DNA of 13,974 nucleotides, from NCBI GenBank assembly GCA_938045315.1, contig CALINM010000214.1:1-13974 (forward strand), in the 5' to 3' direction. The stretch comes from an uncultured bacterium (GTDB lineage Bacteria > CALINM01). Shown piece by piece: positions 2,231 through 12,711 of this stretch (position 1 is the first letter of the stretch; every line of letters begins with the position of its first letter). A program made the translations under genes and the position numbers. Under the pieces are notes generated by a model, which made no database searches, was not told where the DNA came from, and saw nothing but the letters and a program-made list of their open reading frames with translations.

Positions 2231-2339
2231 ATAGATAACCAAAAGAGCAAATTTTTTTGAATTCTATGCAAGGGGTGGCGAAAGGCATTTAAGTCTAATA
2301 GATTGGTGTGAAGAATCTGTGTCCGCAACTTTGGTATTT

Positions 2340-3098
2340 ATGCGTAAAACATTTTTCATTTTATTTATTTTCATGCTTACTACCGCCTGTGAAAAAAAAA
2401 GCTCAAAAAAGCACAATTACGGGAACAATTTATCAAGCGATGCTATCTTTTTATATATACGTTTATAAAGATAATATGGATTTAAAGGGACCGGCATTTG
2501 CAGAGACTATATCTGACAAAGATAGTAACTCCTCACTTCAATTACCACTCAGTAAATGTTTTTTAGTAGCTCGCATGAGAAGTAGCGGTGAGATTGCTGG
2601 ACCGATTGAAGTTGGTGATTTTAAGAGCGAGGTAATTGGACCTATCACAATTAATGAAGATGGAAAAATAATAAAACAAGATATAAAAGTATTAAAAAAA
2701 CCGGTGAAAGCAAAGATATTGCCATAAAAGAAAATAAGAATGAATCGAAAACAGGCATTAGTGGCACAATTTATAATGCTGATTCGAAACCAATAGCTGG
2801 TGCAAAAGTACATGTTTATGATCATGTTCAAATGTCTGAAAGACCAAAATTTGTTTCCAGTCCCACAGGCCCTGAGGGTAAATATAAATTTATCTTCCTA
2901 TAAGGAGGCACATACTATTTAGCAGCAAGAGATAATTTTGGCTGCCCTCCTAAAGTTGGTGATTTGTACGAAAGATATGACAGGGGAACTATAGAACCAT
3001 CAGGAGTAATTGTTAAAGATAACGAAATTTTCCAAAATATTGATATTACAATCCACAGGGGAGATAATGAAAAAACTTTTTTTAAGGGACCGAAATAA
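2340..3098 (+). pseudogene. Frameshifted lipoprotein with two carboxypeptidase-regulatory-like (beta-sandwich) repeats
   Basis: ATG 2340 opens a clear lipoprotein signal (MRKTFFILFIFMLTTAC, lipobox LTTAC). The signal frame is lost in an A-rich run at about 2391-2406. Repeat 1 continues in the next frame (ITGTIY... YVYKD ... KGPAFAETISDKD ... FLVARMRSSGE ... VGDF ... PITINEDGKI). The frame returns to the first one at an A-run near 2693-2700. Repeat 2 follows (ISGTIYNADSKPIAGAKVHV ... PKFVSSPTGPEGKYKF), broken by TAA 2901-2903 exactly where the family has Pro in LPGGTYYL, then GGTYYLAARDNFG ... VGDLYERYD to TAA 3096. The intact protein would be about 252 aa and anchored in the outer or inner membrane. 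Such domains are general extracellular beta-sandwich folds and do not give a specific function. It overlaps the next ORF by 32 bp, so it was probably the head of the operon that follows. Confidence 0.7.
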
Positions 3099-3348
3099 AA
3101 GAAGATCTGCGATCCACAACAATTATGGTGGTAATTGAAAAATTATCAAAAAAATTGGTATTAAATTTAATGCTTTCATAAAAAATAATTTTGATTTTTA
3201 CTCAGGCTTTTTCCAGTTAAACAATCTATCTTTTGAAAATAATTACTTTTATGATAAACCATCGATTTTTGATAAAACAAAAGATTCGGACCTAAACTCA
3301 ATAATCAATGTCAGCCCCATATTAACAAATTTTCCAAACTGGCATTGA
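3067..3348 (+). pseudogene. Small ORF of unknown function, broken by TGA at codon 24
   Basis: ATG 3067 follows a purine-rich GGGGAG by 3 nt. The frame reads MKKLFLRDRNKRRSA ... HNNYGGN, then TGA (3136-3138), then stays open for another 69 codons, rich in Asn, Phe, Lys and Ile, ending SPILTNFPNWH and TGA 3346. Read through, it would be about 93 aa with a basic head and an aromatic/Asn-rich body and no Cys. I do not recognise the family. TGA is one base from TGG (Trp), so a simple nonsense mutation would explain the break. An alternative ATG at 3125 reaches the same downstream frame only with a one-base shift at the A7 run near 3148-3154. It lies 21 nt before the pqqD-like gene and overlaps the lipoprotein, so it may once have been a cassette member or substrate; that is inference. 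Confidence 0.45.
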
Positions 3349-3369: not shown

Positions 3370-3687
3370 ATGAAATTTAAGATCCCTGATGATATTTTCG
3401 AGGGAGTTGAAGAAGAAAATTTAAAAATTGCTGAAGAATGCATAAAAAAAGGTATGTTCGAAGAAGCTGAAAATATTGGTGTTTTGACATTAATCAAAAG
3501 CGGTATCATGACACAACTAAATCCAATGGGTAAAATAATATGGGATAATCTAAAAACCTTAAATACAATAGAATCACTAGCACAAAAAGTAAGTAAAGAA
3601 TTTGATATAAATTTTGAAGAATGTTACAAAGATATTGAATGCTTCATTAAAGAACTAATCGAAAAGGGATTCATAATTTATGAATAA
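3370..3687 (+). CDS. PqqD-family peptide-binding protein, GeoRSP-like system
   Basis: 105 aa. The C-terminal two thirds follow the PqqD pattern: LNPMGKIIWDNL at 50-61 (family LxPxGxxIWxxL), then an acidic helix pair ending in a cluster like ECFIKELIEKGFI. PqqD proteins are RiPP recognition elements that bind a leader peptide and bring it to a radical SAM enzyme. An extra N-terminal segment of about 45 residues, strongly acidic and helical in character, precedes the domain. No Shine-Dalgarno is visible before ATG 3370 (upstream bases are TTTAATATT). The gene overlaps the next by 8 bp (ATGAATAA). PqqD / radical SAM-SPASM / SPASM-only order matches what I know as the GeoRSP system. The assignment to that subfamily is from architecture, not from a search. 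Confidence 0.85.
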   Translation: MKFKIPDDIFEGVEEENLKIAEECIKKGMFEEAENIGVLTLIKSGIMTQLNPMGKIIWDNLKTLNTIESLAQKVSKEFDINFEECYKDIECFIKELIEKGFIIYE

Positions 3688-4696
3688 ATCTTTTTTTCTA
3701 AATGTACCTCTTACTATTAATATTACATTATCTTACAGGTGCAATTTTAATTGTGCCCATTGCTACAGTAGAGAAGAAGACTTTAACGATGAATTATCTT
3801 TTGAACAATTTAAGAAAGTTATTGATATTCTCTCTTCCTGGAATGTACCTTTTTTGAATATAGGTGGTGGTGAACCATTAATTTACCCTCATTTATTTGA
3901 TTTTGTCAGCTATGCAACATCAAAAGGTATACAGTGTACCATGAATACAAATGGTTATCTACTTGACAGAGAAGTAGCTAAGAAAATCAAACAAACTGGA
4001 TTTAAATCCATTGGTGTAAGTATAGATAGCCCAGAAGAAGAAAAACATGACATTTTTAGGAATAAAAAAGGTAGTTTTAAAAAAGCCCTCACTGCTCTTG
4101 ATAATTTGCGTTTGGAAAATGTTAAAACAACAGTATCTATGGTAATTTCGAAGCTTAACTTTAACAATTTTGAAGAATTGATTCCCATATTAAGACAATA
4201 TAAAGTGGCTCAATTATTTCTTCATAATTATAAATGTTCTGGATTGGGATATAAAAATATGGAACAATACGATCTAACACCTGAAGAATGGAAGGAATTT
4301 TATACAAGAGCTTTACAACTCAAAAAACATACTAAAGATATTATTATTTCCTTTGATGATCCCATACTTCATTTATTACCCGAATACGAAGAGTCACCTC
4401 TTGTAAAAGGAAGCACATGCGGTAAATTATCTTTAAATATAAAAGCAAATGGAGACATTACACCCTGTGGATTTATGCCAATTACTTTAGGAAATGTTTT
4501 AAAAGATGACATTAAAAAAATATGGAATGAATCACACATACTAAACATATTAAGAAATCCAATACCCCAAGATAAATGCTCTAAGTGCGGAGTATTTGAA
4601 AATTGTCTTGGTGGTTGTAAGGCAAGAACATATATGATGACTGGTGAATTTCATAAACCAGATCCTCACTGCTGGAAAAAAGGAGGTGAGCTATAA
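3680..4696 (+). CDS. Radical SAM/SPASM maturase, GeoRSP-like system
   Basis: 338 aa. The N-terminal radical SAM domain has the cluster motif C21-x3-C25-x2-C28 (YRCNFNCAHCYS), which binds the [4Fe-4S] cluster that cleaves S-adenosylmethionine, and the SAM-binding GGGEP at 62-66. A complete SPASM domain follows: C247, C263, C300, C303, C309, C313 and C331, spaced Cx15C ... Cx2Cx5Cx3C ... C, enough for two auxiliary Fe-S clusters. Such enzymes modify ribosomally made peptides (thioether or C-C bonds, decarboxylation) or activate proteins. The substrate here is unknown. The start ATG overlaps the end of the PqqD-like gene, and the stop shares a base with the ATG of a 17-codon mini-ORF. No damage is seen, so the enzyme is probably active although genes just upstream are broken. 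Confidence 0.92.
   Translation: MNKSFFLNVPLTINITLSYRCNFNCAHCYSREEDFNDELSFEQFKKVIDILSSWNVPFLNIGGGEPLIYPHLFDFVSYATSKGIQCTMNTNGYLLDREVAKKIKQTGFKSIGVSIDSPEEEKHDIFRNKKGSFKKALTALDNLRLENVKTTVSMVISKLNFNNFEELIPILRQYKVAQLFLHNYKCSGLGYKNMEQYDLTPEEWKEFYTRALQLKKHTKDIIISFDDPILHLLPEYEESPLVKGSTCGKLSLNIKANGDITPCGFMPITLGNVLKDDIKKIWNESHILNILRNPIPQDKCSKCGVFENCLGGCKARTYMMTGEFHKPDPHCWKKGGEL
4681..4689 (+). promoter_or_regulatory. Strong ribosome-binding site before the 17-codon mini-ORF
   Basis: AGGAGGTGA, a near-perfect anti-16S match, lies in the last codons of the radical SAM gene, 6 nt before ATG 4696. It serves the mini-ORF, not the SPASM-only gene, whose frame is separated from it by two stops. Confidence 0.75.
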
Positions 4697-4749
4697 TGAA
4701 ATACATTAAACCAAAAACACTGGGCATATCAACAGTTCATCCTTGTTGA
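4696..4749 (+). CDS. 17-aa mini-ORF between the radical SAM and SPASM-only genes
   Basis: ATG 4696 shares its A with the TAA of the radical SAM gene (TAATG) and has the best Shine-Dalgarno of the operon. It encodes MKYIKPKTLGISTVHPC and stops at TGA 4747-4749, with another in-frame TAA at 4753-4755. It is in the same frame as the SPASM-only gene. Three readings are possible: a true small peptide (a substrate of the maturase, or a leader whose translation controls the next gene); the former N-terminus of the SPASM-only protein, now cut off by two stops; or a by-product. Its basic, Thr/Ser/Cys-containing sequence has no family I recognise. Reinitiation at TTG 4768, 18 nt past the stop, would be natural. 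Confidence 0.45.
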   Translation: MKYIKPKTLGISTVHPC

Positions 4750-4767
4750 AATTAAAGGGATTTAAAA

Positions 4768-5646
4768 TTGTTACCTTTGAGAATTACCTTTGCTTTTAAA
4801 GGTAAAAAGGGGAATAATTTTGTAGAAAGCTGTATTAACATAGCAAAAAAATACAAGCTTTATATGTCTGAATTTGAGGTAGATACTTTTTCCATAGACT
4901 TATTACTTAACATGCTTTCTGCAAAATGTATACCGGTTTTTAGTAAAATTATCCGAGTAATCGATATTAACCTACTTGAAAAAATTTTAGAGTTCCGAAA
5001 TATTTTTAAGGAAATTCAATTCGAATTTCCTTACTCTTTCTCAAGAGATTGGATGACAAAAACTTTTTTTCAATTAGAAAAACTCCTACAGAGGGAAAAT
5101 ATTGTTATCTCCATTTATTTGAACAAGTCCAACATTAATCACTTAGAAGCCTTTTTAAATCTTGCCAGTAAAATAAATATTAGAAAAATAGTTATACCAA
5201 ACCCTGATTTAATAGAACATTTAGATTTTGTTAAAAGTAATTATTTGACACTTCAAGTTTTAAAACAAATTGATATAATAACAGAATATATGTATCAGAT
5301 TGAATTTAGCATACATGACTTTTTTATAGCAAAAAGACCTGGAATTAAAGATGCTCTTTTTTTCCGTGGATGCCAATCTGGCAAATTGCTTTGCTATGTT
5401 TTAAATGGTGATGTTTTTCCGTGCAAGACAATACCAATCTTATGTGGAAATTTAAATGAAGAATCTTTTGAAGTAATCTGGAAAAAAGTTAATACTGAAG
5501 TTAATAAAATCTCAAAAGGACGTTTGTGTTTAAAATGTAAGAATTCAAATATTTGTTACTTTGGTTGCCCTGGAACTGTTTTTTTTATAAATGACGGTAC
5601 AAAGGATCCACTGTGTGAGGAGATATATGGGAATATACCTGGATAA
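4768..5646 (+). CDS. SPASM-domain protein lacking the radical SAM cluster, GeoRSP-like system
   Basis: 292 aa. No Cx3Cx2C motif is present; the only Cys residues in the first 200 are C22 and C54. The C-terminus carries a full SPASM set: C202, C219, C254, C257, C263, C267 and C283 (Cx2Cx5Cx3C core), plus extra C209 and C226. The N-terminal 190 residues look like a relic TIM-barrel-type domain that has lost SAM cleavage. The likely role is an auxiliary Fe-S subunit or partner of the preceding maturase, as in GeoRSP cassettes. The start is uncertain. TTG 4768 has AAGGGA 7 nt upstream; there is no in-frame ATG nearby upstream except 4696, which is blocked by two stops. The end overlaps the cysteine desulfurase by 20 bp. 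Confidence 0.82.
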   Translation: MLPLRITFAFKGKKGNNFVESCINIAKKYKLYMSEFEVDTFSIDLLLNMLSAKCIPVFSKIIRVIDINLLEKILEFRNIFKEIQFEFPYSFSRDWMTKTFFQLEKLLQRENIVISIYLNKSNINHLEAFLNLASKINIRKIVIPNPDLIEHLDFVKSNYLTLQVLKQIDIITEYMYQIEFSIHDFFIAKRPGIKDALFFRGCQSGKLLCYVLNGDVFPCKTIPILCGNLNEESFEVIWKKVNTEVNKISKGRLCLKCKNSNICYFGCPGTVFFINDGTKDPLCEEIYGNIPG

Positions 5647-6775
5647 TGCAGCTACATCATATCCAAAACCTCCAGAAGTTTATGAGGCAGTATATAAAGC
5701 TATGAAAGAAATAGGAGCAAATCCTGGTAGAGGTGGTCATAAGTTATCTTTATTAGCATCAAGAATTGTTTTTGAGTGTAGAGAAGAAATCGCAAGTTTT
5801 TTTAATATACCGGATAGTAAAAATATAGTTTTCACATCAAATGCTACAGAAGCCCTTAACTTAGCGATTAAAGGTATTCTTAAAAAAAATGATAAAGTTA
5901 TTACCTCTACAATTGAGCACAACTCTGTAATTAGACCATTAACTAAACTAGAAAAAGAATTAAATATAAAAATTACTTTTATTCAATCTGATAATAGGGG
6001 AAGCATAAATCCTGATAATATACTCCCATACCTTGATGATAACATTAAATTAATTGTTTTAACCCATTCATCAAATGTTATTGGCAATATTGTACCTATT
6101 GAAGAAATATTTTATCATTGCAAAAAAAAGGGAATAATAACACTACTTGATGCAGCACAAACTGCAGGACTGATACCAATAGATGTTCAAAAAATGAATA
6201 TAGACCTTCTCGCATGTCCAGGGCACAAATCACTATTAGGGCCACAGGGTACAGGTTTTCTATACATAAGAAGTGGTTTAGAATTAGATACTTTAAAAGA
6301 AGGTGGCACTGGCACAGAATCATCATCAATTATCCAACCATTAGAATTGCCCGAAAGATTTGAATCAGGAACACTTAATATGCCAGGGATAGCTGGACTT
6401 TTAGCGGGAATTAGATTCATTAAAAAAACAGGTATTGAAAATATAAGAAATCATGAAATTAAACTCATGCAAAAGCTTATAGAAGGATTAAAAAATACAA
6501 AAAATTTAAAACTTTATGGCTCTCTTGTACCTGAAAAAATGACTTCCACTTTATCATTTAATCTGCTAAATTTAGATTGTTCAGAAGTTGGATTTATATT
6601 GGATGAGGTTTATAATATATATACAAGAGTTGGTTTGCATTGTGCACCACTGGCACACAAAACAATTGGGACTTTCCCATCGGGAACTGTGAGGGTTAGT
6701 CCTGGTTATTTCAACAACGAAGGGGACATAGATGAATTTCTTAAGGCTATTAAAGAGATTAGTGAAAGGCATTAG
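5627..6775 (+). CDS. Cysteine desulfurase family protein (class-V aminotransferase fold)
   Basis: 382 aa. PLP enzyme predicted to take sulfur from cysteine as a protein persulfide. Key residues: LDNAAT at 5-10, H98 stacking on PLP (IEHNS), D175 and Q178 (DAAQT), PLP lysine K201 in CPGHKS, and active-site Cys339 in GLHCAPLAH. The short N-terminus and NPGRGGHKLS stretch suit the SufS-like/EF2568-type group rather than housekeeping IscS. I choose ATG 5627 because GAGGAG lies 4 nt upstream and the protein then starts MGIYLDNAAT; the longer frame from 5591 adds residues foreign to the family. It overlaps the SPASM-only gene by 20 bp, implying coupled translation, so it may feed sulfur to the Fe-S clusters of the cassette or to its product. 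Confidence 0.9.
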   Translation: MGIYLDNAATSYPKPPEVYEAVYKAMKEIGANPGRGGHKLSLLASRIVFECREEIASFFNIPDSKNIVFTSNATEALNLAIKGILKKNDKVITSTIEHNSVIRPLTKLEKELNIKITFIQSDNRGSINPDNILPYLDDNIKLIVLTHSSNVIGNIVPIEEIFYHCKKKGIITLLDAAQTAGLIPIDVQKMNIDLLACPGHKSLLGPQGTGFLYIRSGLELDTLKEGGTGTESSSIIQPLELPERFESGTLNMPGIAGLLAGIRFIKKTGIENIRNHEIKLMQKLIEGLKNTKNLKLYGSLVPEKMTSTLSFNLLNLDCSEVGFILDEVYNIYTRVGLHCAPLAHKTIGTFPSGTVRVSPGYFNNEGDIDEFLKAIKEISERH

Positions 6776-7025
6776 TATATTGTTTTTCACACTTTTTTTA
6801 TACAACTGTTCATTACCACCAGATGTACCTGTTACTAAAGAAGCTATCGATAATACAAAACTATACTCAACCTTCCTTATAGAAGAAAGCCCTGATGCAC
6901 TTATACACGTACTAAATAAAAATGGTGAAGCAGTAATAAGGGCAACATACAGGGGAATACCTGTTTATTTAAAGATTTACGCCACCTCACGTGGTTTAAT
7001 CTGGTATGTCTATCCAAGAGAATAG
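6762..7025 (+). CDS. Small predicted lipoprotein of unknown function
   Basis: With GTG 6762 as start the protein is 87 aa and opens with a textbook type II signal, MKGISILFFTLFLYNC, lipobox L13-Y14-N15-C16. An AAAGAGA stretch sits just upstream as a modest ribosome-binding site. ATG 6732 is an in-frame alternative adding 10 residues and a longer overlap with the desulfurase. The mature part (about 70 aa) has short beta-strand-like blocks such as DALIHVLNKNGEAVIRATY and ends TSRGLIWYVYPRE. I recognise no family. The gene overlaps the desulfurase by 14 bp and is 3 nt from tsaD. Confidence 0.75.
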   Translation: MKGISILFFTLFLYNCSLPPDVPVTKEAIDNTKLYSTFLIEESPDALIHVLNKNGEAVIRATYRGIPVYLKIYATSRGLIWYVYPRE

Positions 7026-9863: not shown

Positions 9864-9932
9864 AATGTTTGATATTGTTGCATATTTTGAAAAATCATGC
9901 AATAATATTTTAAATATTTGCATTTAAAAACA
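9864..9932. promoter_or_regulatory. Divergent control region with repeated TTGCAT/ATGCAA
   Basis: This gap separates tRNA-Pro (minus) from the corrinoid methyltransferase (plus). It contains TTGCAT (9878-9883), ATGCAA (9897-9902) and TTGCAT (9918-9923): an inverted pair with 13 nt between, plus a third copy. A weak plus-strand promoter, TTGAAA (9887-9892) with 17 nt to TTAAAT (9910-9915), overlaps them. No Shine-Dalgarno precedes ATG 9933. Confidence 0.3.
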
Positions 9933-10721
9933 ATGAAAATAATTTCAGAAAATTTACAACCCTTTGAAAAAAAGGCAAAATTAGCTTTTGAAAGAAACCG
10001 GGATGCACTAATAAATTTTTTACATGAGATAGAAGTAAAGGGTATAACAGCAATAGATGTAAATTTGGGACCTATAAGAAAAAACAAAAAAGAAATTGTT
10101 AGATTCTTTATTAATACGATAGAAGAATTTAGTAATCTTGAAATTTTTTTAGATTCTGCTGATCCAGAAATTATAAAGTTAGGATTAGAGTGTGCAACAA
10201 AAAAAATCACCATTAATGGATTTTCTTTAGAAGAGAAAAAATTAAAAGAAATCTTACCACTTGCAGCTCACTATAAAGTTGACATTGTAGGATTAATTAT
10301 GACTGGATCTTTTATACCTTCAATTCTGGAAGAAAAATTATTATTAGCAGAAGAGATGATATACCACGCAGAACAAAATGGAATAGATAGATCACAAATA
10401 ATATTAGATCCAGTTGTGGTCCCATTAGGCTGGGAAAATGGTGCAATATCAGCAAAAAGTAACATAGATTTTATAAAACACTTACCTTCCATATTTGGAC
10501 CTGAAATAAGAACCCTTGTAGGACTTTCAAATCTAACAACCAGAGCAGCAGGCGGAAAAGCTAAAGATTTGCTTCAATCCCTTTATCTTTCTATGCTTTA
10601 CAATGCCGGGTTAGATATGGTTATGCTTGACGTTTTTAATGAAAATATAATGTCCACTATAAAGTTTATTGATACCTTAGAAGGAAAGAGAATTTTCTCC
10701 TTTTTCGAGTTCACTTCTTAA
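9933..10721 (+). CDS. Methyltetrahydrofolate:corrinoid methyltransferase-like (pterin-binding TIM barrel)
   Basis: 262 aa, the usual size of AcsE/MeTr, which moves the methyl group of methyltetrahydrofolate to a corrinoid Fe-S protein. Residues at the expected pterin-site positions are present: D74 (FLDSADPE), N95 (TINGFSLE), D159 (LDPVVVPLG) and N200 (VGLSNLTT). The sequence SLEEKKLKEILPLAAHY and the VGLSN strand are closer to MeTr and the MetH pterin domain than to folate-synthesis FolP. I start at ATG 9933 (MKIISEN, like MIIIGEN in relatives) rather than TTG 9918; neither has a clear ribosome-binding site. No carbonyl-branch Wood-Ljungdahl genes are in the window, so the corrinoid partner is unknown. 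The 3' end overlaps the converging gene by 45 bp. Confidence 0.85.
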   Translation: MKIISENLQPFEKKAKLAFERNRDALINFLHEIEVKGITAIDVNLGPIRKNKKEIVRFFINTIEEFSNLEIFLDSADPEIIKLGLECATKKITINGFSLEEKKLKEILPLAAHYKVDIVGLIMTGSFIPSILEEKLLLAEEMIYHAEQNGIDRSQIILDPVVVPLGWENGAISAKSNIDFIKHLPSIFGPEIRTLVGLSNLTTRAAGGKAKDLLQSLYLSMLYNAGLDMVMLDVFNENIMSTIKFIDTLEGKRIFSFFEFTS

Positions 10722-11093
10722 TCTTTCAATTTCTAATTCTCTCTTCTTTTCTTTAAGCTTTTTTAAAACAAACTTTTTAATAAAACTTTGTTTGCTTAGA
10801 TAGGGAAGACAATTTTGTTCAAAATCTTTTAAAACAATTTTTTTTACGCTGTCAAGTTCAACTTCAATAACAGCATTTTTAGTGATGGTCTTTGTATAAA
10901 CCAATTTATCACCTAAAAAGTTCATAACTTCATTATAAAGATGCTCATCATCAAAGATTGAACTATCAATATTTATATGCGAGTATAATTTTAAAACTAC
11001 ATTAAAATAATTACAAAAATATCTAATAGTTTCATCAAAAATAATTACTTTAAGCCCATTCGAAAGAATGTACTCCTTTAAAATTTTACCCAT
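10677..11093 (-). CDS. Hypothetical protein, 138 aa, coupled to CoA-disulfide reductase
   Basis: I do not recognise the family. ATG 11093 is preferred: GGGAG lies 5 nt upstream, and the start overlaps the end of the CoA-disulfide reductase gene by 8 bp (ATGGGTAA). Longer in-frame starts at 11105 and 11123 overlap it further. The protein looks soluble. An alpha/beta-like first half (LSNGLKVIIFDETIRYF, IEVELDSVKKIVL) is followed by a long, highly charged C-terminal helix rich in Lys/Glu (about 108-138, KKLKEKKRELEIERLRSELE), possibly a coiled coil. No signal peptide or membrane segment. Its place in the operon suggests a link to thiol/persulfide metabolism or to the diguanylate cyclase upstream, but nothing in the sequence shows it. 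Confidence 0.75.
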   Translation of the reverse strand: MGKILKEYILSNGLKVIIFDETIRYFCNYFNVVLKLYSHINIDSSIFDDEHLYNEVMNFLGDKLVYTKTITKNAVIEVELDSVKKIVLKDFEQNCLPYLSKQSFIKKFVLKKLKEKKRELEIERLRSELEKGENSLSF

Positions 11094-12711
11094 TTTTTCT
11101 CCCATGTAATTTGTATCCACCACTTAAATTATAAACCTTCGTAAAACCCTTGTTTAAAAGCATTCTTGTAGCAATATAGCTTCTATAACCACTGGCGCAA
11201 CTAATCAAAATCTTTTCATCCCTCTTTTCATTTAACTTCTCAATTTTTGATCTCAATTCATCTATAGGTATATTGATTGCATTGGGATAAGAGCTTTTTC
11301 TCAACTCTGATGGTGTTCTCACATCGAGAAGTATAAATTCACTTAAATTTTCTGGAATTTTCCATAACGTTGGCGCCTCACCCTTCACAATATTATTCCC
11401 AATCATACCTGCCAAAATAACTGGATCTTTAGCTGAAGAAAAAGGCGGCGCATAAGCTAAATCAAAAGATTCAAGATCTTCAAAAGTAAGCCCTGAATAT
11501 ATCGCAGAAGCAAAAACATCAATTCTTTTATCAACCCCGCTTTCGCCAACTATTTGAACACCTAAAATTTTTCCTTCTCTATTACCAGTAACTTTTATGT
11601 ATAAAGGTCTTGCACCTGGATAATAATCAGCATGATCCTGAGTAACAAGATAATAACTTATATAATCTGTGCCATCCTGTAATAGTTTTTTTTCATTAAA
11701 TCCCGTTACTGCAAAAACACAATCTTTAAACTTTGCGATAGCTGTGCCCAGTGTACCTTTATATTCCTTCTTACTATTCGATACAGCGTTATAACCAGCA
11801 ATTCTACCCTGTTTATTAGCTGAACCTGCGAGTGGAATCCATGTGGGCTCTCCATTTATCACGTAATAATTCTCAGCAACATCACCAGCTGCATATATAT
11901 CTTTTACTGTTGTTTCCATAAATTTATCAACTTTTATAGCATTTCTCAACCCTAATTCAATGCCAGTATTTTCACATAATTTAGAATTTGGTTTAACGCC
12001 TAAAGAAGCTATCCCTAAATCAAATTCTATTGTGTTGCCATCATCTAAATAAGCAATATTTTCATTTATCCTATTTACTCCAACACCAGTGATAACTCTA
12101 ACACCATAATATCTTAACCTATCTAAAACAATATCTGCCATCTCCGAATCAAAAGGTGCCAGTATCTGGTTCATCTTCTCGATAATAGTCACATCCATGC
12201 CGAGATTTAAAAGATTTTCAGCTAATTCAATACCAATAAAACCACCACCCATAATGAGAGCTCTTTTGGGTTTTTGATTCTCAATGAAACTTTTCAAAAT
12301 ATCCATTTCGTTAAGATTATAAAGAGAAAATACCCTTTCACTTTTTAAATCCCCAGGGATGATAGGGCTTGCACCAGTAGCAATGATTAGTTTATCATAC
12401 TTATCTTCAAATAAAACTCCACTGTTTAAGTTTTTAACAACAATGGTTTTATTATCTGGAATGATTTTTATTACCTCATGTTTAATTCTAACTTCTATAT
12501 TAAATCTATTTTTTAAATAATTTGGTGTGACCACTAATAAATCATCCCTATCTTTTATTATTTTCCCAACATAATAGGGCATACCACAATTCGCATAGGA
12601 TATATAATCACCTTTTTCATAAATTAATATTTCCCATTCTTCAGATGTTCTTCTTGCTTTAACAGCAGAAGATGCTCCAGCAGCAACACCACCTATAACC
12701 AACAATTTCAT
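11086..12711 (-). CDS. CoA-disulfide / persulfide reductase with C-terminal rhodanese domain
   Basis: 541 aa flavoprotein. FAD-binding loop GGVAAGASSAVKARR at 7-21; redox Cys42 in SYANCGMPYYVG, the single-cysteine signature of CoA-disulfide reductases; second dinucleotide loop MGGGFIGIELAENL near 155-168; FAD/NAD motif YAAGDVAE near 270; a rhodanese domain from about 455 with DVRTPSE and active Cys505 in the loop CASGYRS. This CoADR-Rhd architecture is known from NADH-dependent persulfide/polysulfide reductases (Shewanella Npsr, Bacillus CoADR-RHD), which reduce CoA disulfide, CoA persulfide or polysulfide with NAD(P)H. AGGGGGT lies 5 nt upstream of the ATG, inside the end of the diguanylate cyclase gene 3 nt away. 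The protein is intact and cytosolic. Confidence 0.93.
   Translation of the reverse strand: MKLLVIGGVAAGASSAVKARRTSEEWEILIYEKGDYISYANCGMPYYVGKIIKDRDDLLVVTPNYLKNRFNIEVRIKHEVIKIIPDNKTIVVKNLNSGVLFEDKYDKLIIATGASPIIPGDLKSERVFSLYNLNEMDILKSFIENQKPKRALIMGGGFIGIELAENLLNLGMDVTIIEKMNQILAPFDSEMADIVLDRLRYYGVRVITGVGVNRINENIAYLDDGNTIEFDLGIASLGVKPNSKLCENTGIELGLRNAIKVDKFMETTVKDIYAAGDVAENYYVINGEPTWIPLAGSANKQGRIAGYNAVSNSKKEYKGTLGTAIAKFKDCVFAVTGFNEKKLLQDGTDYISYYLVTQDHADYYPGARPLYIKVTGNREGKILGVQIVGESGVDKRIDVFASAIYSGLTFEDLESFDLAYAPPFSSAKDPVILAGMIGNNIVKGEAPTLWKIPENLSEFILLDVRTPSELRKSSYPNAINIPIDELRSKIEKLNEKRDEKILISCASGYRSYIATRMLLNKGFTKVYNLSGGYKLHGRKNG

Follow-up and report, generated by a model that had tools for sequence, protein, structure and literature searches.

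A conserved short peptide ending in His-Pro-Cys as candidate precursor of the GeoRSP radical SAM system

The 17-residue product of a mini-ORF, MKYIKPKTLGISTVHPC, is on sequence grounds the best candidate for the missing precursor of GeoRSP, a named yet orphan radical SAM system which is common in Desulfuromonadia and for which no substrate was found in the literature searched. The mini-ORF lies in a GeoRSP-type cassette on a contig of 13,974 nucleotides from an uncultured bacterium (the whole of this stretch is called the window here). Because like peptides recur with the same C-terminal His-Pro-Cys (HPC), are present or absent together with GeoRSP and are often encoded behind giant cytochromes, the product is very probably the missing substrate. 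A short encoded candidate precursor conserved together with the enzymes, as expected of a ribosomally synthesised, modified peptide (RiPP), is at hand. An earlier note on this DNA mentioned the mini-ORF only in passing; here it was the most informative element of the cassette, a conserved candidate precursor.

The four genes that the earlier note had described, coding for a PqqD-like protein, a radical SAM/SPASM enzyme, a SPASM-only protein and a class-V desulfurase, were all found as open reading frames at the positions in Table 1. The overlaps of 8 bp between the first two genes and of 20 bp between the last two were as reported, but the cassette is not "fused" to the desulfurase, the genes being separate and overlapping. 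From its ATG the desulfurase reads MGIYLDNAATS; a longer frame starting at 5591 is unsupported, the homologue at locus L004 beginning with MGIYLDNSATS. A TAATG junction (4694-4698) and the mini-ORF of 17 codons do lie between the radical SAM and SPASM-only genes. The mini-ORF is preceded, six bases 5', by a perfect Shine-Dalgarno sequence and ends in TGA, and the SPASM-only gene begins 18 nt after that stop codon.

Table 1. Positions of the cassette and adjoining features in the window, with supporting evidence
Feature	Position	Strand	Evidence
PqqD-like RiPP recognition (RRE) protein	3370..3687	+	PF05402 48.9 bits (gathering 23.4); TIGR04302 47.5 bits; lasso_PqqD_Bac 35.9 bits
Radical SAM/SPASM maturase, GeoRSP type	3680..4696	+	TIGR04303 385.9 bits, E 1.9e-115; CxxxCxxC and SPASM Cys kept in 11 homologues
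Shine-Dalgarno AAGGAGGTGA of the mini-ORF, within the coding end of the radical SAM gene	4680..4689	+	Sequence
Mini-ORF, candidate RiPP precursor MKYIKPKTLGISTVHPC, TGA stop	4696..4749	+	Conserved family, 110 non-redundant copies; co-occurrence with GeoRSP
SPASM-only partner, TTG start	4768..5646	+	TIGR04304 35.7 bits; 7 invariant SPASM Cys; AF2 model and PDB matches
Class-V cysteine desulfurase, EF2568 type	5627..6775	+	TIGR01977 522 bits (cut-off 377); catalytic Cys and PLP Lys present
Small lipoprotein-like protein of desulfurase-PhoH-TsaD block	6732..7025	+	Homologues in 17 loci

Upstream of the cassette, positions 2302-3345 hold what is left of a neighbourhood typical of GeoRSP. First comes a TTR-like (CpReg) gene interrupted by a frameshift and a stop, next a fragment of the binding protein of 162 aa, and last 69 residues from the C terminus of a beta-helix protein. 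The genes between these remnants exist in a genome of the same genus (G001) and are absent from the window, which suggests a deletion scar or a fault in assembly. Elsewhere in the window, a methyltetrahydrofolate:corrinoid methyltransferase-like protein (9918-10721) scores under its model cut-off, and a CoA-disulfide-reductase-like protein with a C-terminal rhodanese domain is encoded on the minus strand (11086-12711).

The first three proteins of the cassette were compared with the NCBIfam GeoRSP models TIGR04302 (PqqD, cut-off 100), TIGR04303 (radical SAM, 400) and TIGR04304 (SPASM-only, 300). Each had its best match in the corresponding model, the radical SAM protein slightly below the cut-off and the PqqD and SPASM-only proteins far below theirs. 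In a second genome of the same family (G002) the radical SAM protein scores 409.8, above the cut-off. The three genes are adjacent, with the order and strand seen in gene maps of GeoRSP loci that exceed the cut-offs. The earlier assignment to GeoRSP is correct in kind and the radical SAM enzyme, by its sequence, most likely belongs with that system, with the reservation that all three window proteins stay under the cut-offs; the named system, for its part, has no model matching the peptide. A literature search made largely outside the subscription journals turned up no paper on GeoRSP. The radical SAM protein carries, as had been claimed, the CxxxCxxC motif (C21, C25 and C28) and SPASM cysteines, the latter seven in number.

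The SPASM-only protein retains seven SPASM cysteines without a SAM cluster. When it was aligned with 39 positional homologues, these cysteines were invariant, and so shared with bona fide GeoRSP members, an HD pair was nearly invariant, and CxxxCxxC was absent from all 40 sequences. Its AlphaFold (AF2) model (pLDDT 80.8, pTM 0.81) matched TigE, PqqE and SuiB in the PDB with Z scores of 14.7-14.8 over about 265 residues, and a search with the family profile found PqqE (E 1.4e-15). The cysteine pattern, taken with the fold and profile matches, indicates a predicted radical SAM fold from which the SAM-cluster cysteines are missing; the earlier note had named a match to an unrelated family as a refutation of its reading, and the protein does not belong to an unrelated family.

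The earlier note proposed that the desulfurase supplies sulfur to the clusters or inserts it into the product. It is unlikely that the enzyme is such a dedicated member of the set, making this a sulfur-inserting variant of GeoRSP. The arrangement does recur: of the 91 GeoRSP loci in the neighbourhood survey, which include redundant and truncated ones, 31 have a desulfurase next to them, with the active Cys and Lys kept in all 31. In the window the desulfurase gene overlaps the SPASM-only gene. However, a desulfurase stands next to PhoH in two GeoRSP-negative genomes (G421 and G456), and a desulfurase-lipoprotein-PhoH block lies far from GeoRSP in others of Geobacter type (G310, G430, G445 and G469), so that a dedicated role as sulfur donor is unsupported. 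GeoRSP-linked desulfurases, among which are those of L238, L243 and L245, also interleave with unlinked copies in a tree, and the window genome has four other class-V PLP genes. We read the desulfurase as part of a neighbouring housekeeping block, where it may help in Fe-S supply without being dedicated to the cassette. A desulfurase-(95-aa lipoprotein)-PhoH block, kept independently of GeoRSP, was observed at L232, L233, L235, L236, L239 and L242; in the window a TsaD gene lies 3' of the small lipoprotein gene. Against the selenocysteine lyase SclA model (NF040779) the window desulfurase scored 364 bits, below the cut-off of 525.

The peptide itself was found again at equivalent places. The operon of G002 has MKYVRPKAKGISSVHPC at the same position, found independently, and in another lineage MKKEYEKPAVVASSYIHPC is located after the radical SAM gene. 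A contig scan with the radical SAM alignment gave 80 loci. Most of those from Desulfuromonadales have a like peptide directly 3' of the radical SAM gene (MKKYMKPRVVGSSNVHPC and variants). Four Geobacter-type loci have it about 7.6 kb before that gene, close to the upstream limit of the retrieved stretch. A profile (A2) built from 25 such peptides gave full-length matches, mostly with E < 1e-5, in almost every one of the 42 genomes with known loci; there were often several per genome, far from the GeoRSP enzymes, most copies being in trans. The family comprises peptides of 17-21 residues and is spread across Desulfuromonadia, Nitrospirota and others. Pfam and NCBIfam hold no model for the 20-residue forms.

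Conservation was assessed on 110 non-redundant copies. The C-terminal H, P and C are invariant in all 110, as is Pro at -12, and Tyr occupies position -15 in 107 copies, the other 3 having Phe there, with a fixed spacing from the Tyr to the C terminus; [YF]xxPx[VILAT] occurs in the N-terminal half of all 90 distinct peptides. Synonymous sites are saturated (pS 0.78) and pN is 0.24, giving a pN/pS of 0.31; all four Pro codons are used, and an RBS-like stretch lies 5' of 103 copies. As judged from these substitutions, the family is under coding selection. One further copy (L191) has a four-residue tail beyond HPC. A Nitrospirae genome (G400, L189-L193) has about 14 copies, most with Cys at -5 (VCVHPC or ACVHPC), in runs which alternate with genes for TTR-like secreted proteins.

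Both GeoRSP and the peptide were searched for in 146 genomes of Desulfuromonadia, the class of G310. GeoRSP is present in 50, and the peptide was found in 49 of these and in none of the other 96 (Fisher p 2.5e-38, a value that overstates independence as the genomes are related). Some of these genomes supplied training peptides, which affects the sensitivity and not the zero among the negatives. Presence and absence of the peptide track GeoRSP even inside families and genera. In a broad sample, nine of 372 genomes were positive with the peptide profile, six of them outside its training set, and all nine carry GeoRSP (Fisher p 2e-16). The peptide went undetected in two GeoRSP genomes, at L258 (G445, with none within the 19 kb retrieved near GeoRSP) and L023 (G246), where it was either lost, diverged or missed.

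This strict co-occurrence bears on a different reading, that the mini-ORF encodes a regulatory leader or arrest peptide, its Pro-Cys-stop stalling the ribosome and so controlling the downstream gene. Its shortness, the invariant C terminus right before the stop with Pro penultimate, and a gene starting only 18 nt further on in the window would suit such a role. An attenuator would not be expected to co-occur with GeoRSP in this way, however, nor to have an N-terminal YxxP nearly as conserved as the C terminus, and many copies are last in their operon, the gene that follows being read in the other direction (eg L146, L149, L151, L155 and L199). The arrest peptide is very improbable and was rejected on the orientation of the next gene. 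A selenopeptide ending CUN, with the TGA after HPC read as selenocysteine, is hardly credible: the SelD gene of the window genome has one in-frame TGA (G000:C10:29515-30420), which makes use of selenocysteine in that genome probable, a YedE family "selenium transporter" is among the neighbours in related loci and the desulfurase is of EF2568 type, but homologues stop at the same point with TAA (29), TAG (15) or TGA (66), the close relative at L004 having TAA, and SelD is missing from four of the 18 GeoRSP genomes tested, on which count selenium was also rejected as the purpose of the cassette.

With the mini-ORF product taken as a RiPP precursor, the cassette can be set beside known systems. 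Discrete lasso RREs bind a [Y/W]xxPx[L/V/I/F/A] motif (PMC13381572; PMC12710340), with which the YxxPx[VILAT] of the peptides (Tyr or Phe first) agrees, and the window PqqD protein matches the lasso PqqD model. On this likeness the N-terminal half would be the leader, bound by the PqqD-like protein as in lasso systems, and HPC the core. Unlike a lasso system, the cassette has no cyclase or lasso protease, and the peptide has no lasso core and a fixed spacer to its C terminus. PQQ biosynthesis (PqqA/D/E) shares a discrete PqqD and a SPASM enzyme, and has in PqqE a structural match to the SPASM-only fold (Z 14.7), but the GeoRSP peptide has no Glu/Tyr pair, and the SPASM-only partner has no SAM cluster.

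The mycofactocin precursor has its modified Tyr at the C terminus. Mycofactocin (MftA/MftB/MftC) resembles GeoRSP in its PqqD-like chaperone, its radical SAM/SPASM enzyme and a precursor conserved at the extreme C terminus; it differs in that the GeoRSP core is HPC and not VY, that GeoRSP precursors are many and in trans, and that there is a SPASM-only partner. The MftC model is the second best for the window radical SAM protein, at 180 bits against a cut-off of 265, ie below mycofactocin membership. The mycofactocin maturase oxidatively decarboxylates the terminal Tyr of the precursor peptide, which it also crosslinks to the penultimate Val (review PMC9012708, where the Tyr is called N-terminal). 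By analogy, the GeoRSP radical SAM/SPASM enzyme would modify the invariant HPC, with the SPASM-only protein as its non-catalytic partner. The likeliest chemistry would be oxidative, and we tentatively place it at the C-terminal Cys, which would be joined in a thioether or decarboxylated as in mycofactocin. The set did not clearly include a leader peptidase or an exporter.

The neighbours of the trans copies were counted for the 59 with a same-strand gene ending no more than 400 bp upstream. Of these, 23 stand directly behind a cytochrome with at least 10 CXXCH motifs (up to 38), against 2 of 344 background ORFs that follow such a cytochrome, counted over 400 kb spread evenly across one such genome. 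One of the cytochromes matches TIGR01904 (CxxxxCH/CxxCH type). Other copies adjoin TTR-like (CarboxypepD_reg) secreted proteins, and further secreted neighbours read from sequence as beta-helix or VCBS-repeat proteins. The GeoRSP clusters themselves contain substrate-binding proteins, a Sulf_transp YedE permease, ResB and a permease. Since the trans copies lie beside secreted proteins, and above all giant multihaem cytochromes, the same enzymes would serve them and the product may be used with the outer electron-transfer apparatus, a role that we consider possible rather than likely. The link is not universal and fails in the organism studied here, as the window organism and G002 have no TIGR01904 (CxxxxCH-type) cytochromes; G001, of the same genus, has one.

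No earlier description of the precursor was found in the literature searched, which lay largely outside the subscription journals; the peptide is the new result here, and it may be known elsewhere. At 17-21 residues it is shorter than the products that gene-calling and family-scanning programs usually keep, and this would account for its having been overlooked. With a precursor in hand, the GeoRSP system becomes experimentally testable. Giant extracellular multihaem cytochromes, and secreted proteins associated with them, could have in the HPC peptides a cofactor, ligand or assembly factor that belongs to a new class of C-terminally modified RiPPs. A single set of enzymes in the cell would then serve several precursors whose genes lie in different cytochrome operons. 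By their position behind giant cytochromes, the trans copies suggest a RiPP linked to extracellular electron transfer, for which the literature searched offered no precedent.
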